A DNA stretch of 64,000 nt, taken from assembly GCA_902774015.1 (NCBI GenBank), contig CACYHB010000019.1, positions 1 through 64,000 on the forward strand. The letters run 5' to 3'. The stretch is from Oscillospiraceae bacterium. Lineage in GTDB: Bacteria; Bacillota; Clostridia; Oscillospirales; Oscillospiraceae. Below the pieces are notes generated by a model. That model worked only from the letters and a program-made list of their open reading frames with translations, searched no databases and had not been told where the DNA came from. Positions within the stretch are counted from its first letter, which is position 1; the number at the start of each line of letters is the position of its first letter. Positions 9,617 to 51,650 of the stretch are shown piece after piece. Made by a program: the position numbers and the translations under genes.

Positions 9617-9834
9617 TCCCCGTCTCCGATATAGGTAAAGCGGCGCACGCGTCTGCCGTCCCGCTCGATCTCCTCGCTCCACATGGATGCGGGGCGCACC
9701 CAGACGCCGCCCTCGCCGTACAGCGCGCGGTAGACTACCATCAGTTCCTCCGTCTCGGAGTGCCGCGCGGTGCAGAGCAGCTCGTATTCCTTCCCCTTGA
9801 AGTGCCGGTAGCGGCCGGGGCGAAAATCATCCAT
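9613..9834 (-). CDS. DUF1653 family protein
   Basis: 73 aa from ATG 9834, preceded by GGGAGTG. The sequence (PGRYRHFKGKEYELL, then VVYRALYGEGGVWVRP and the end FTYIGDGE) is a clear DUF1653 domain, a small all-beta protein of unknown function found across bacteria and sometimes fused to NUDIX or other domains. It is first in the operon with Smr, MutY and MoaE-like genes. Confidence 0.88.
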   Translation of the reverse strand: MDDFRPGRYRHFKGKEYELLCTARHSETEELMVVYRALYGEGGVWVRPASMWSEEIERDGRRVRRFTYIGDGE

Positions 9835-9857
9835 GGACAACACTCCCTTTTTTGAAA

Positions 9858-9886
9858 AGCATACCATCCCGAGCCGTTATTTGCAA
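9858..9886 (-). promoter_or_regulatory. Promoter of the DUF1653-Smr-MutY-MoaE operon
   Basis: Minus strand: TTGCAA (9886-9881), 17 bp, TATGCT (9863-9858), 24 bases before the start codon. Confidence 0.65.
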
Positions 9887-9940
9887 GGCGGGGAAGGGGA
9901 GAGAAATACGCTTATTTTACCTTCCTGTAAAAAAGAAGAC

Positions 9941-9969
9941 TTCACTTTGCGGAGGAAATGCGGTATACT
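9941..9969 (+). promoter_or_regulatory. Promoter of the atp operon
   Basis: TTCACT (9941-9946), 17 bp, TATACT (9964-9969), 35 bases ahead of the atpB start. It is divergent from the promoter at 9858-9886. Confidence 0.7.
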
Positions 9970-10003
9970 GAAAAAGTATTTGAAACGAACCGAGGTGATA
10001 CAT

Positions 10004-10690
10004 TTGGAAGAAGCCGCCAATGTGCTGTTTCGCATCGGGCCGCTGGAGGTGACGAGCACGGTCACCACCATGTGGGCGATCATTGCGGTGCTGGCGCTGG
10101 TGAGCTGGCTTGCCACGCGCAATCTGAAGGAGATCCCCGGACCGCTGCAGACCGGCGCGGAAATGGCGGTCGGCGCGCTGCGGAATTTCTTTGAGGGGAC
10201 GCTGGGCAAGGAGCACACGCGCAAGTATTTTCCGATCCTGGGCACATTCTTCGTCTTCATCATCGTTTGCAACTACTCCGGGCTCCTGCCCGGCGCGGGA
10301 CATCTCAAAGGCTTCGCGGTGCCGACTGCCTGCCTGTCGGTGACGGCGGGCCTGGGCGTCATCGCCTTCTTCACCACCCACGTCATCGGCATTCGGGAGC
10401 GCGGCCTGGGGCACTATCTGGCCAGCTTTGCCAAGCCCCTGATCCTGGTGGTGCTGATGCTGCCTCTGAACCTGATCGAGCAGTTCATCCGCCCCATGTC
10501 CCTGGCGCTGCGTCTCTACGGCAACATGTACGGCGAGGAGACCGTTACCGAGCAGCTCTACGAGATCTTTCCCATCGGCGCCCCGCTCATCATGCAGGTG
10601 CTGAGCCTGATCTTCTGCCTGCTGCAGGCCATCGTCTTTACCATGCTGCTGTCCATCTACATTTCCGAGGCGCTGGAATCCGAAGAGTAA
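10004..10690 (+). CDS. atpB: F-type ATP synthase subunit a
   Basis: 228 aa. I take the TTG at 10004 as start: GAGGTG lies 6 bases upstream, it follows the promoter, and the 57 in-frame codons before it have non-protein-like composition. Five to six membrane helices are predicted. The essential arginine of the ion half-channels is in SLALRLYGNMYGEE, and helix 5 ends in the typical QAIVFTMLLSIYISEAL. Subunit a sits beside the c-ring and routes H+ or Na+. First gene of the atp operon. Confidence 0.95.
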   Translation: MEEAANVLFRIGPLEVTSTVTTMWAIIAVLALVSWLATRNLKEIPGPLQTGAEMAVGALRNFFEGTLGKEHTRKYFPILGTFFVFIIVCNYSGLLPGAGHLKGFAVPTACLSVTAGLGVIAFFTTHVIGIRERGLGHYLASFAKPLILVVLMLPLNLIEQFIRPMSLALRLYGNMYGEETVTEQLYEIFPIGAPLIMQVLSLIFCLLQAIVFTMLLSIYISEALESEE

Positions 10691-10986: not shown

Positions 10987-11418
10987 ATGTTAAGCATCAA
11001 CATATCCGAGCTCATATGGACGATCATCAATTTCTTCCTGCTGTATTTTGTGCTCAGGCGTCTCCTGTTTGACCCGGTGGGCAAGCTCCTGGACGAGCGC
11101 CAGGCAAAGATCGACGCCGGTCGGAGCGAGGCCAAAAAGGCGCAGGAGACTGCGCAGGCCCTGCGCGACAGGCTTGCCGAGGAAAAGGCGGAGAGCCGCC
11201 TGGAGGCCGGCCGCATCGTCGCCGCCGCCGAGAGCGAGGGCGAGAAGCGCCATAGCGAGACGCTGAAGGCCGCCCGTGCGCAGGCTGCCGACGATCTGCG
11301 CGCAGCCGCGGCGCAGCTGAAAGAACAGGACAGGCAGGAGGAGGCGCTGCTGCGTGAGCGCAGCGGCGAGCTCTCCGCCCTCCTCTCCGGGCGCATCCTG
11401 GGACAGACAGAAGAATGA
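10987..11418 (+). CDS. atpF: F-type ATP synthase subunit b (first copy)
   Basis: 143 aa, ATG with AAGGAG upstream. One N-terminal membrane helix (about 5-25, ELIWTIINFFLLYFVLRRL) is followed by FDPVGKLLDERQAKI and a long alanine/glutamate-rich coiled coil, the peripheral stalk. Somewhat shorter than the usual 160 aa. A second b-like segment begins the fused gene downstream, so the stalk is probably a b/b' heterodimer as in actinobacteria and phototrophs. Confidence 0.93.
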   Translation: MLSINISELIWTIINFFLLYFVLRRLLFDPVGKLLDERQAKIDAGRSEAKKAQETAQALRDRLAEEKAESRLEAGRIVAAAESEGEKRHSETLKAARAQAADDLRAAAAQLKEQDRQEEALLRERSGELSALLSGRILGQTEE

Positions 11419-11494
11419 CTGACCGGTAAAGCACAAAGAAACGTTTGCCATGGCGTTTCACAGCTTCGGCATCCCTCCGTTGGGAGGTTCTGGC

Positions 11495-11594
11495 GTTTTT
11501 GCAGGGCTTACCCCTGACAAAAACACAAGGAGCCGAGCTTTGCGAGGCCTCGCTTCGACCAAACGCGGCGCGTCACAGACGCCGCGTACGATAA
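11495..11594 (+). repeat. Dispersed intergenic repeat, family R2, copy 1
   Basis: About 100 bp in the 240-base gap between atpF and the fused gene. It matches, in inverted orientation, 30187-30289: a GTTTTTG...CAAAAAC inverted pair, then GAGCCGAGC, TGCGAGGCCT, CGACCAAACG and GGCGCGTC, ending CGATAA. No coding capacity. I do not know a name for it. Confidence 0.6.
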
Positions 11595-11658
11595 AAGCAG
11601 GCCCTCGATGGGGAAACGCTGTTTCGCAATTGAAAAAGGAAAGGAGGGATGAGCGGAC

Positions 11659-13914
11659 ATGAGCGGCTGGAACCTGTTTTACGGGATCATCAACTTTGTG
11701 ATCCTGGCAGCCGGCCTCTATTTCATCGGCCGCAAGCTGGTGGCCAACGCCATCCGCGCGCACCGCGACAAGGTGAGCGGGGATCTGGAGCAGGCTGCCG
11801 CATCCCGTGTACAGGCAAAAGAACTGCTGGACGGCCTGGAGAGCGAGAAGGCCCGCGGCGCCGCCGAGCGGGAGGAGATCCTGCGCCAGGCGCGGCAGAA
11901 CGCCGAAGAGATCGGGCGCGCCGCCGCCGAACAGGATCGGATGGCGGCCGGGCAGATCTCGCAGGACGCCCATAAGGAGCTGCGCAGGCTCGTCCATCAT
12001 CAGCGCATCGAGAGGAACCGGCAGGCGGGGGAGGAGATCACCGCCGCCGCCGCCGAATTGATCGCGCGGCCGGAGAATGCTGCGGGGCGCGCCCGCATGA
12101 CCGAGACTTTTATCGCGCGTCTGCCCGAGCGCCTGCAGCTCACGGCGGGCGATCTGAGCGCCATCCGCAGCCGCGGAGCGCTTAAAGTCCGTATCAGCAG
12201 CAGCGAGGATCTGGCCGAGGAGGATCTGGGGCGGATCCGCGCCGCGGTGGACGCCCTGCTCGGTGCCGCCGGCGAGGAGCCGGAGATCCTGCTGGAGAGC
12301 GAGAAAAAACCGGAGCTGATCGGCGGGATGCGCCTGCAGATCGGCGACACCGTGTATGACGGCAGCGCCGCCGGCCTGCTGGAGCGCACCAGAAAGCAGC
12401 TTGCCTCCTTTGACAGCACCGACGAGGAACTGATCGGCGCGCTGCGTGAGCAGCTCAAGCGACAGAATCAGGACCCGGAGGTCTATCAGATCGGCACCGT
12501 GATCAGCGTGTCCGACGGCATCTGCCGCGTCTCCGGCGTTTCCGACGCCATGGCGGGCGAGCTTCTGGAGATGAAGGGCGGCCTGCGCGGCATGGTCATG
12601 GACCTGGAGCAGGACAACGTGGGCGTAGTGCTGCTGGGCAACTATGACAGCCTGCAGGAGGGCCACTGGGTCCGCCGCACCGGGCGCATCACCGAGGTGC
12701 CCGTGGGCTCCGCGCTGATCGGCCGGGTAGTCGACGCGCTGGGCAATCCTCTGGACGGCGCGGGTGAACTGAACACCCACCACACCCGGCCCATCGAGTC
12801 CCCGGCGCCCGGCGTCATCGACCGCAAGAGCGTGTCTGTACCCATGCAGACCGGCATCAAGGCCATCGACGCCCTGGTGCCCATCGGCCGCGGCCAGCGT
12901 GAGCTCATCATCGGCGACCGCCAGACCGGCAAAACCGCCATCGCCCTGGATACCATCATCAACCAGAAGGGCAAGGACATGATCTGCATCTACGTCGCCA
13001 TCGGACAGAAGGAGTCCACGGTGGCAGGCGTGGTGGAAAAGCTGCGCGAGCACGGCGCGATGGACTACACCATCGTGGTCTGCGCCAGCGCCTCGGAGTC
13101 CGCGCCCATGCTGTATATCGCGCCCTACGCGGGCGCCGCCATGGGCGAATACTTCATGTATCAGGGCAGGGACGTGCTGATCGTATACGACGATCTCTCA
13201 AAGCAGGCCGTGGCCTACCGTGAGATCTCCCTGCTGCTGCATCGCCCGCCCGGACGCGAGGCCTATCCCGGCGACGTGTTCTATCTGCACTCCCGGCTTC
13301 TGGAGCGTGCGGCGCGGCTGTCGCCGGAGGCCGGCGGCGGCAGCATGACCGCGCTGCCCATCATCGAGACCCAGGCCGGCGACATTTCGGCCTATATCCC
13401 CACCAACGTCATCTCCATCACCGACGGCCAGATCTTCCTGGAGACGGATCTGTTCAACGCGGGCGTGCGTCCGGCGGTCAACGTGGGCCTCTCCGTCAGC
13501 CGTGTGGGCGGCTCCGCCCAGCTCGGCGCCATGAAGCAGGTGGCCGGGCGGCTCCGCATGGATCTGGCGCAGTATCGGGAGCTGGCGGCTTTCGCCCAAT
13601 TCGGCTCCGACCTGGACAAGACCACCCGCGCGACCCTTCACCGGGGAGACCGGATGACCGAGCTTTTGAAGCAGCCCCAGTACAGCCCCATGGCCGCCGC
13701 CGATCAGGTGGTCTCCATCTGGGCGGTCAACGAGGGCTACGCCGACAGGGTGGAGCTCAAGGACGTCGCCCGCTTCGAAAAGGGCCTGCTCAGCTTTGTG
13801 CACGAGCGGCTCCCCCGGCTGGACGACATCATCCACACCGGCAAAAAGCTGGACGAGGGCCAGCTCAAGGCGCTGCGCCGCGTCGTTGAGGAGTACGCGG
13901 AGAGTTTTGAGTAA
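11659..13914 (+). CDS. atpA: Triple fusion: ATP synthase b' + delta C-terminal domain + complete alpha subunit
   Basis: 751 aa, ATG with AAGGAGGG 11 bases upstream. Residues 4-24 are a membrane helix ([20 protein letters not shown]) and 25-155 a coiled-coil stalk, i.e. a second b subunit. Residues about 157-248 match only the C-terminal domain of delta/OSCP ([19 protein letters not shown], then LERTRKQL). The delta N-terminal helix bundle, which normally clamps the alpha N-termini, is missing. Residues 249-751 are a full-length alpha subunit (about 503 aa) with P-loop GDRQTGKT (419-426) and the rest of the nucleotide domain. No in-frame ATG, GTG or TTG occurs at the delta-alpha boundary, so separate initiation of alpha is unlikely. 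b-delta fusions are known (mycobacteria), but attachment to alpha, present three times per F1, is a stoichiometric puzzle. Confidence 0.92.
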
Positions 13915-14063: not shown

Positions 14064-14921
14064 ATGGCGAATCTGCGCGCCATCCGCACCCGCATCAAGA
14101 GTGTGGAGAACACCCAGCAGATCACAAAATCCATGAAAATGGTCGCGGCGGCCAAGCTCCGGCGTACCCAGAGCGCCTTTGCGTCCCTGAGGGAGTATGC
14201 CGAACGCAGCGGCGAGATGCTGCTGGAGGCGCTGTGCGGCGTGCAGGCGCCCGAGCATCCGCTTCTGCGCCGCCATGAGGAAAACGCGCGCGTCTGCTAT
14301 GTGCTGATCGTGGGCAACCGCGGTCTCTGCGGGACCTACAACTCCGCCCTGCTGCGCTTTCTGGAGGATCTGGCGGCGCAGGATGCGCGGGAGAAGTTCC
14401 TGGTGGTCTGCGGCCGCTGGGGGAGAGACATGATCCCCGCCGCCAATATCCCCATCCGAAAGAGCTTCGAGATCAGCGACGCGCCGGAGGCGAAGGAGGC
14501 CGCTGGCGTCTGCGCGTACCTCCGGGAACTCTACACCTCCGGCGAGGCCGACGAGATCGTGCTGGTGTTCCAGCATTTCCGCTCGGTCCTCCAGCAGCTG
14601 CCTGAAAGCCGGACCCTGCTGCCCATGGCCGTCGGGTCTGCGGATGAGAAGCCGGAACGGAAGCTCATCTATGAGCCGGACAGGGAGACCCTGATCGGCA
14701 CCCTTGTGGAAATGGCCTTTCAGAACGCCGTACACACGGCGCTCCTGGAGGCCCGTACCGGCGAGCACTCCGCCCGCATGACGGCCATGACCGCCGCGGC
14801 GGACAACACCGAGGAGCTGATCGGCGAGCTCACGCTGCAGCTCAACCACGCGCGGCAGGCGGCGATCACCACGGAGATCTCCGAGATCGCCGGCGGCGCG
14901 GAAGCTTTGAAGAACAAGTAA
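14064..14921 (+). CDS. atpG: F-type ATP synthase subunit gamma
   Basis: 285 aa from ATG 14064, with AAGGAAG 8 bases upstream. The N-terminal helix MANLRAIRTRIKSVENTQQI and SMKMVAAAKLRR and the C-terminal helix LNHARQAAITTEISEI are the conserved coiled coil that rotates inside the alpha/beta hexamer. The central Rossmann-like domain (VLIVGNRGLCGTYN) is intact. Normal length. Confidence 0.96.
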   Translation: MANLRAIRTRIKSVENTQQITKSMKMVAAAKLRRTQSAFASLREYAERSGEMLLEALCGVQAPEHPLLRRHEENARVCYVLIVGNRGLCGTYNSALLRFLEDLAAQDAREKFLVVCGRWGRDMIPAANIPIRKSFEISDAPEAKEAAGVCAYLRELYTSGEADEIVLVFQHFRSVLQQLPESRTLLPMAVGSADEKPERKLIYEPDRETLIGTLVEMAFQNAVHTALLEARTGEHSARMTAMTAAADNTEELIGELTLQLNHARQAAITTEISEIAGGAEALKNK

Positions 14922-16475
<1,554 letters not shown>

Positions 16476-16484
16476 GGGCAAGCC

Positions 16485-16751
16485 ATGGGAGATCTGTTTC
16501 ATCTGTCTGTTGTGACAAGCGAGGCAACCGTGCTGGATGCCCGGGTGCGCTCTGTCAGGCTCCCCACGGGCTTCGGCTCCCTGGGCGTCCTGGCGCACCA
16601 CGCTCCCATGCTCTGCGCCGTAAGCAAGGGCGTGCTGCACTGCACGCTGGAGGACGGGAGCGACGTCCGCGTGCGCATCAGCGAAGGCGTGGCCAGTGTG
16701 GGCGACAATGAGATGACCGTCCTCTGCGGCGACGCCGCCCCGGAGGAATAA
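16485..16751 (+). CDS. atpC: F-type ATP synthase subunit epsilon, N-terminal domain only
   Basis: 88 aa. The beta-sandwich domain is recognisable (FHLSVVTSEATVLDARV, GSLGVLAHHAPML, ISEGVASVGDNEMTVL). The usual epsilon is 130-140 aa and carries two C-terminal helices that inhibit ATP hydrolysis. Here the frame ends right after the sandwich (GDAAPEE). Terminator sequences follow, so no separate helical domain is encoded. Loss of the helices implies that hydrolysis is not inhibited by epsilon, which is inference. Confidence 0.93.
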   Translation: MGDLFHLSVVTSEATVLDARVRSVRLPTGFGSLGVLAHHAPMLCAVSKGVLHCTLEDGSDVRVRISEGVASVGDNEMTVLCGDAAPEE

Positions 16752-26083: not shown

Positions 26084-26169
26084 TGGTGCCGGTGACCGGA
26101 CTCGAACCGGTACGGCCTTGCGGCCAAGGGATTTTAAGTCCCTGGTGTCTACCATTCCACCACACCGGC
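26084..26169 (-). tRNA. tRNA-Leu (anticodon UAA), CCA encoded
   Basis: Acceptor GCCGGTG pairs with CACCGGC before A-CCA. D loop, anticodon stem AGGGA/TCCCT with loop CTTAAAA (anticodon TAA), a long variable arm (TGGCCGCAAGGCC) typical of leucine tRNA, and the T loop GGTTCGAGTCC are all present. Confidence 0.96.
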
Positions 26170-47285: not shown

Positions 47286-47332
47286 TCGTAAGATCACTTC
47301 AAGTCAGACAGCTCTCCGCGCGGGCAAAAGCC

Positions 47333-47480
47333 CTTGCGACAGTCCGGCGGATCTTCTCCGACGGCCCAGGCATATCCGCACGGGATGCGGATACCCTTCG
47401 GCGGCGATCCCTTTCGCTCCCCCGCTTCCCGGCGGCTGAACGGAGCTACTGATGATAACCGCGCCTCTATCATGCGCTAT
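47333..47480 (-). promoter_or_regulatory. Lysine riboswitch (L box)
   Basis: On the minus strand the aptamer reads GATAGAGGCGCGG, ATCAGTAG, GGGAAGCGGGGGAGCGAA, GGGATCGCCGCCGAAGGG, a stem ATCCGCA...TGCGGAT, TGCCTGGG and GGACTGTCGC, all in the L-box order, with the P1 helix closed by GATAG and CTGTC. Confidence 0.94.
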
Positions 47481-51410: not shown

Positions 51411-51440
51411 AAAAAACTCCCCCGGGTTTCCCCGGGGGAG
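51411..51440 (-). terminator. Terminator of the structured RNA
   Basis: 10-bp GC stem CTCCCCCGGG / CCCGGGGGAG with a four-base loop, followed on the minus strand by TTTTTT. Confidence 0.92.
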
Positions 51441-51459
51441 CAGTCCGCGCATGCCGTGC

Positions 51460-51650
51460 CGGCCCAATTATAACCTGCACGAATGGGCAGGTGGGTCGCC
51501 TAAGTTCTGTTTCGCTGCTTCCAACGTCCGACAGGGAGTCGGGAGGCCTGCAATCCGCAGATTCAAATCGGCATCCCTTATGAGAGATGTGGGTTTAATG
51601 GGCCGTCCTGCCGCAAAGGGCAAACACGCACACCGCAGAACTTTGTTTCC
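51460..51650 (-). ncRNA. ssrS: Structured RNA, probably 6S RNA
   Basis: On the minus strand a TATACT (51662-51657) precedes a start near 51650. The RNA folds into one long rod: closing helix AGTTCTG/CAGAACT (51642-51636 with 51509-51503), a second helix GGCAGG/CCTGTC, a large internal bubble (around CCCATTAAACCCACATC) and an apical stem GGGATGCC/GGCCTCCC. A single rod with a central bubble is the 6S RNA architecture that mimics an open promoter. Ends are approximate and the transcript continues to the terminator at 51411. It is not tmRNA, RNase P or SRP RNA by their signature motifs. Confidence 0.6.

Follow-up and report, generated by a model that had tools for sequence, protein, structure and literature searches.

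The window analyzed here, a 64,000-nucleotide stretch of an Oscillospiraceae genome, carries an F-type ATP synthase operon in the order a - c - b - [b'-deltaC-alpha] - gamma - beta - epsilon, with single genes for a and c, a separate b and, at its center, one frame in which a membrane stalk of b' type, the C-terminal domain of delta (deltaC) and alpha follow one another (Table 1). Subunit c has E-A-L-T-I-Y at its ion site, which we take to resemble the cyanobacterial proton-type c. In its first helix, the customary glycine repeat is missing, and its ring size may be unusual. Elsewhere in the window, the minus strand encodes a lysine riboswitch (47301-47477), a tRNA (26087-26169) and a 6S RNA (51438-51644).

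Table 1. Genes and features of the ATP synthase locus, in positions of the window
Feature	Positions	Strand	Evidence
atpB, subunit a; real start probably downstream of the first ATG	9833..10690	+	PF00119, 163.8 bits; no other copy detected in the genome
atpE, subunit c, 75 aa	10732..10959	+	PF00137
atpF, free-standing subunit b (143 aa), expected to pair with the fused b'	10987..11418	+	PF00430, 72.1 bits
240-base spacer between b and the fused gene, with dispersed repeat	11419..11658	+	11445-11640: 6 matches in the genome, itself included
Shine-Dalgarno-like AGGAGGG; ATG of the fused gene 10 bases further on	11642..11648	+	read from the sequence
Fused b'-deltaC-alpha gene, 751 aa	11659..13914	+	alignment with 35 full-length homologues
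N-terminal hydrophobic (membrane) helix (one) and b'-type stalk helix, residues 1-155	11659..12123	+	PF00430 at 6-109; predicted helices 4-136 and 138-158
Delta/OSCP C-terminal domain, N-terminal domain absent, residues 171-248	12169..12402	+	PF00213 positions 99-172 of 172; matches to PS3 delta and the engineered chain 9jc1
Complete F1 alpha with its N-terminal helix, residues 255-751	12421..13911	+	TIGR00962, 796.2 bits, 255-750
atpG, gamma; listed frame from 13938	14064..14921	+	PF00231 from frame residue 45, TIGR01146 from 43
atpD, beta	15090..16475	+	TIGR01039, 805.4 bits
atpC, epsilon, 88 aa, beta-sandwich domain only, C-terminal helical domain absent	16485..16751	+	PF02823 at 5-84

The fused frame opens with ATG and has no internal stop, and each of its three parts is recognized by an established profile. 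ATP-synt_B scores 33.5 bits (cut-off 28) over a segment that combines an N-terminal membrane helix with a long stalk helix, as expected of a b or b' subunit. OSCP scores 39.4 bits (cut-off 22.3) with its C-terminal portion only, so that of the two domains of a delta subunit, the N-terminal helical one is missing. The alpha/beta N-terminal, nucleotide-binding and C-terminal domains occupy residues 277-745, and the atpA model TIGR00962, far above its curated cut-off of 484.45 bits, identifies a full-length F-type alpha. Within residues 225-300, in-frame ATG, GTG or TTG codons occur just at 232, 281, 284 and 298, none of them with a Shine-Dalgarno match. These findings uphold the first-pass annotation, made from the sequence alone, which had described an uninterrupted 751-aa frame without a start codon near the delta-alpha border (the nearest being 232 and 281), the loss of the delta N-terminal bundle and the lack of a separate atpH in the operon. 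Its three-part layout likewise stands, but the exact bounds that it gave (1-155, 157-248 and 249-751) needed small corrections: recognizable b' homology ends at about residue 110, the predicted stalk helices reach 136 and 158, and in the predicted model the deltaC fold spans approximately 163-249 and the alpha N-terminal helix approximately 255-268. That AlphaFold2 model, of residues 1-284, was built from 7 sequences with a pLDDT of 83.0 and comprises the stalk helix at 4-136, another helix at 138-158, the alpha/beta domain of deltaC and the first helix of alpha. Its best fold matches are the mycobacterial b-delta chains, and PS3 delta, 9jc1 and V-type stalk subunits are also among its matches. 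The full-length model was poor (pLDDT 56.3, pTM 0.43).

The rest of the genome, whose assembly is 94% complete and 5.9% contaminated in 88 contigs, was searched with the fused protein. The matches were the protein itself, the F1 beta subunit and two frames on another contig, and no second F-type alpha was found. The suggestion that normal alpha comes from elsewhere thus received no support from the genome. The two frames are subunits B and A of a V-type ATP synthase (G000:C2:10859-13221; L003, L004), both of which exceed their subfamily cut-offs. A free delta was not found in the assembly either, as the OSCP profile matched the fused domain only, and a second F-type alpha or delta elsewhere in the genome was consequently rejected as a candidate. 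PF00119 gave one match to subunit a, and PF00430 found two b-type domains, those of the free b and of the fused b'.

The fusion is shared by relatives, which are uncultured gut and rumen clostridia, several near ones having been sampled from the gut of goats and sheep. Of 36 genomes of the same genus, 21 carry the fused frame at full span and free of stops, at 55-73% identity, and five more have a partial or broken gene: in G005, G016 and G021 at contig ends, in G002 cut by a contig end and with one in-frame stop, and in G026 broken inside alpha. The remaining ten had no F-type alpha match, several of these being incomplete assemblies. Separate atpH and atpA genes in all close relatives would have spoken against the first-pass annotation, and a free alpha was found in none of the 36. 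Chance or an assembly accident is therefore excluded by this conservation, which confirms that the fusion in the window is real. One genome of the genus, G006, contains two different fused operons (G006:C94 and G006:C81), representing either a second copy or contamination.

Beyond the genus, an order-level search of 396 genomes detected the full fusion in at least 16, the window's included, distributed over families f1, f18, f19, f20 and f23; the last four of these account for at least 15 genomes besides the window's. Since other genera of family f1 in this sample had free alpha, other fusions or no match, the distribution suggests that the fused gene may have been transferred laterally. Among the matches listed in a class-level search (392 genomes), no stop-free full-span row appeared outside the window, and among those listed in a phylum-level search with the N-terminal profile (398 genomes), only the window's own row lay in a frame above 700 aa; in both, such rows would be expected to rank first. 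In the phylum search, several b-deltaC-like matches were also listed, lying in shorter frames of about 250-310 aa. In 25 of 26 fused-gene genomes, the OSCP match inside the fused gene starts no earlier than model position 91 (in G011, it starts at 18). A separate full delta was found in only two of the 26, G121 and G369, and both possess a second, standard operon with free alpha. In G375, OSCP additionally matches a frame with stops that lies on another contig, starting at model position 34; in G278, it gives one additional match that stays below the cut-off.

The full-length fused proteins, 36 with that of the window, can be aligned end to end. When 31 of their N-terminal regions were scanned (E 0.01), OSCP was recognized in all and ATP-synt_B in 30, and invariant positions were N12 in the membrane helix as well as G223, D230, T231 and D234 in deltaC. 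The deltaC-alpha border itself is variable, with a four-column insertion in homologues from other families. No start codon is conserved there in the 36 sequences, and the only position with a start-type codon throughout is 298, inside alpha (ATG in 35, GTG in L109), which has a Shine-Dalgarno match in none. An internal translation start at the border was accordingly rejected, as the sequences share no start codon there and their Shine-Dalgarno-like matches fall at scattered places. In seven pairs of near neighbors picked by us, pN/pS was 0.02-0.26 for alpha, 0.28-0.67 for b' and 0.19-0.80 for deltaC, and 0.04-0.65 across the deltaC-alpha junction. Across the b'-deltaC junction it ranged over 0.16-0.98, the highest value belonging to one pair, the window and L095. 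With these ratios below 1 in every segment of all seven pairs, selection has held the frame in most comparisons, most weakly at the b'-deltaC junction.

What could such a chain do within an ATP synthase? The idea that the stator is bolted directly to alpha, put forward by the first-pass annotation, is consistent with the sequence: b', deltaC and alpha form a single chain, the delta N-domain is lost, no free alpha or delta was found, and the relatives have conserved this arrangement. As encoded, the product would covalently link the b' arm, the stalk-binding half of delta and alpha. Because F1 has three alpha subunits and the genome search yielded no free alpha, an enzyme built from whole chains would have three b' arms, each alpha position bearing a deltaC clamp and a membrane-anchored arm. 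The delta N-domain, gone from the window chain, lies on the three-fold axis and in Bacillus PS3 restricts the enzyme to one stalk (PMC12229609). For a PS3 enzyme with an engineered delta(deltaN)-alpha fusion, cryo-EM revealed one to three b2 stalks, a and b increased about two-fold, and H+/ATP was 5.8 vs 3.0 (PMC12229609). By analogy, each b' of the window's enzyme might pair with one separate b, so that three b/b' stalks arise. Every such stalk may in turn keep an a subunit of its own in contact with the c ring, in which case two or three a subunits would translocate more ions per ATP and a lower proton-motive force would be needed. Three alpha-anchored b/b' stalks per enzyme is the reading that we regard as best and, on balance, as probable. 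The further step, a natural F-type lineage in which three covalent stalks go together with as many as three proton-conducting a subunits on each c ring and multiply the ions moved per ATP, as engineering achieved in PS3, is a more tentative proposal, for which we would claim somewhat less than even chances. The short epsilon accompanies the fusion consistently: in all 30 fused loci with an epsilon match (36 were examined, six being matchless), the protein is about 81-92 aa long and has no C-terminal helical domain, and in 13 of 13 loci with other fusion types, 47-67 aa follow the matched domain. However, 3 of the 11 standard operons share the short epsilon, which weakens it as support for three stalks.

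A rather unlikely alternative is that three fused chains assemble while only one stalk, with one b and one a, is completed, the other two b' arms being idle or serving as braces, somewhat as in V-ATPases. It would suit a genome in which subunit a and the separate b have a single gene each and no sequence feature sets their dose, and it can draw on the V-ATPases with their three EG stalks (PMC6131620) and on the V-type stalk subunits among the fold matches of b'-deltaC. On the other hand, no sequence feature sets one b' arm apart from the other two, and every stalk observed in the engineered enzyme retained its a subunit (PMC12229609). Three-stalk particles made up an extremely low share on the grids of that enzyme, which its authors blame on loss during preparation, and two stalks were the average (PMC12229609); this counts against the three-stalk reading.

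Somewhat less likely again is a post-translational cut at approximately residues 240-256, which would release free alpha and leave a b'-deltaC protein for one ordinary stalk. The variability of the border with its insertion would allow for this, N-ATPase operons encode a free b-deltaC protein, and a genetic split exists in L044 (see below), though between b' and deltaC-alpha. Yet no cleavage motif was seen by eye in the 36-protein alignment, the frame runs across the border in 36 of 36 aligned loci, and an uncut deltaC-alpha junction is functional in the engineered enzyme (PMC12229609). That the fusion stems from a faulty assembly or frame, or from gene decay, is hardly credible: the fragmented, partly contaminated assembly and a broken frame in two of the 26 same-genus carriers (G026 and G002) could be cited in favor of this, but the same frame recurs in 21 other genomes of the genus and in other families, pN/pS stays below 1 in every segment, and the genes for the F1 and Fo partners are all intact.

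The alpha phylogeny places the fusion in a lineage of its own. In a tree of 124 rows, 42 b'-deltaC-alpha rows and L044 formed one group (SH-aLRT 99), and in a more careful tree of 64 of these rows, picked by us to span the groups, 22 such rows and L044 stood together with support of 100/99. Window copies (L005, L177), incomplete frames (L014, L024, L029), rows whose alpha core duplicated that of another and rows that spanned too small a part of alpha had been left out of the trees. One clade of the 22 rows without L044 was not rejected (p-AU 0.067). Natural deltaC-alpha, delta-alpha and deltaC-deltaC-alpha rows were placed elsewhere, and a single origin of all stator-alpha fusions was rejected for the rows used (38 of 64 constrained together, p-AU 9.5e-05). 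From these separate positions and this test, it follows that the stator was joined to alpha more than once.

Several of these loci deserve separate mention. L044:2560-5251, on the rumen Clostridiales contig OMWM01000009.1 and inside the fused clade, has a b' frame followed by a deltaC-alpha frame with its own ATG (OSCP 37.3 bits); the C-terminal part of its b' frame seems by eye to consist of two tandem diverged deltaC copies, where OSCP reaches 13.9 bits, below the cut-off. As the chain is split into two proteins there, continuity from b' to alpha is not indispensable in L044, which counts against three alpha-anchored stalks. L145:3523-5565 (genome G128) is a 681-aa frame with two tandem delta C-domains ahead of alpha. 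Three clostridial genomes encode delta-alpha fusions of 671-682 aa (L146:4128-6173, minus strand; L173:4274-6310, plus strand; L174:4160-6172, minus strand), whose OSCP matches at model positions 3-171, 35-172 and 19-171, respectively, show that most or all of the N-domain is kept. These are hard to reconcile with three deltas atop F1, and since such natural fusions exist, fusion alone is no proof of three-fold use. Finally, L172:4397-6688 (minus strand, genome G445) has a single stop between b and a deltaC-alpha that continues in b's frame; this near-fusion state plausibly pictures how the loss of one stop could create a fusion, although its alpha is not close to that of the window.

F-type ATP synthases have been described with one peripheral stalk and one a subunit (PMC5376962, PMC12229609). 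The b-delta fusions, the delta(deltaN)-alpha fusion in engineered and natural form and the multi-stalk idea are already known; new, as far as the literature was searched, are the b'-deltaC-alpha chain, for which we found no report in the open-licence PubMed Central literature, the separate and patchily spread ATPase lineage, its pairing with an epsilon that is short, and the variants of split and of tandem form. The authors of the PS3 study consider multi-stalk enzymes likely in nature and state that a firmly bound one is needed to relate the number of a subunits to proton stoichiometry (PMC12229609). A stalk arm that is covalent with alpha cannot be shed unless it is cut, and thus both questions become directly testable in this lineage. 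If three a subunits are present, a very small proton-motive force might suffice for ATP synthesis, as would befit gut anaerobes that live by fermentation. Together with the other delta-alpha, deltaC-alpha and deltaC-deltaC-alpha fusions, the lineage suggests that the F-type stator has been rebuilt more than once in evolution.

How does this chain compare with known stators? Like subunit E of the V/A-type enzymes, it has a long stalk helix with a small alpha/beta end domain, although the sequence match is at chance level (PRK01558, 11.6 bits). Subunit E is not known to have a transmembrane helix or to be fused to a nucleotide-binding subunit, and the V-ATPase has one a subunit. V/A-type ATPases have two or three stalks per enzyme (PMC5376962). 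The mycobacterial b-delta chains (for example PDB 7jg5_d and 7njk_d) likewise unite b and delta in one chain next to a separate second b. That fusion keeps the full delta, is not known to be joined to alpha and is present in one copy per enzyme; PRK13428, its 445-aa model of b with full-length delta, gives the window chain 14.5 bits against a cut-off of 328, as only deltaC is there to be matched.

As in the N-type ATPase, b runs into a deltaC-like domain, and TIGR03321, the model of that b subunit, covers residues 10-242 of the window chain, but its 61.7 bits fall far under the cut-off of 224.7; of two fused chains from other families, one was matched over its first 50 residues only and one not at all. 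The N-type alpha is a separate protein, whereas the window's is a standard F-type alpha, scoring 796 bits with TIGR00962 and 651.9 with TIGR03324, the N-type alpha model (cut-off 750.5), which gives 774.9 bits to the truncated control L178, an N-type operon by both TIGR03321 and TIGR03324. N-type operons begin with beta-epsilon and have extra subunits in between (PMC5709465, PMC5376962), unlike the order found here, and N-type rows are far from the window in the alpha tree. Membership in the N-ATPases was therefore rejected by alpha score, b-model score, tree position and operon order.

The view of the first-pass annotation that known precedents stop at b-delta fusions proved wrong, as the delta(deltaN)-alpha type has been engineered in PS3 and occurs naturally in Acidaminococcus fermentans and two UniProt entries (PMC12229609). 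The window chain is of this type, with deltaC in frame with the alpha N-terminus and the N-domain lost, and the engineered chain (PDB 9jc1) aligns with it without interruption over residues 182-745, from deltaC into and through alpha (E 7e-218). Among the fold matches, this chain shows 37% identity over 108 columns; both enzymes also lack the epsilon C-domain. For the natural cases, the accessible text of PMC12229609 mentions delta and alpha alone, and in our alpha tree, where no row was identified as Acidaminococcus, the window lineage stands apart from the deltaC-alpha fusions by the same test that rejected a common clade. In the engineered enzyme, the stalk consists of free b subunits only, whereas the window chain carries a membrane-anchored b' in front and leaves one separate b over; relative to what that text describes, the new step is that the membrane stalk is fused as well.
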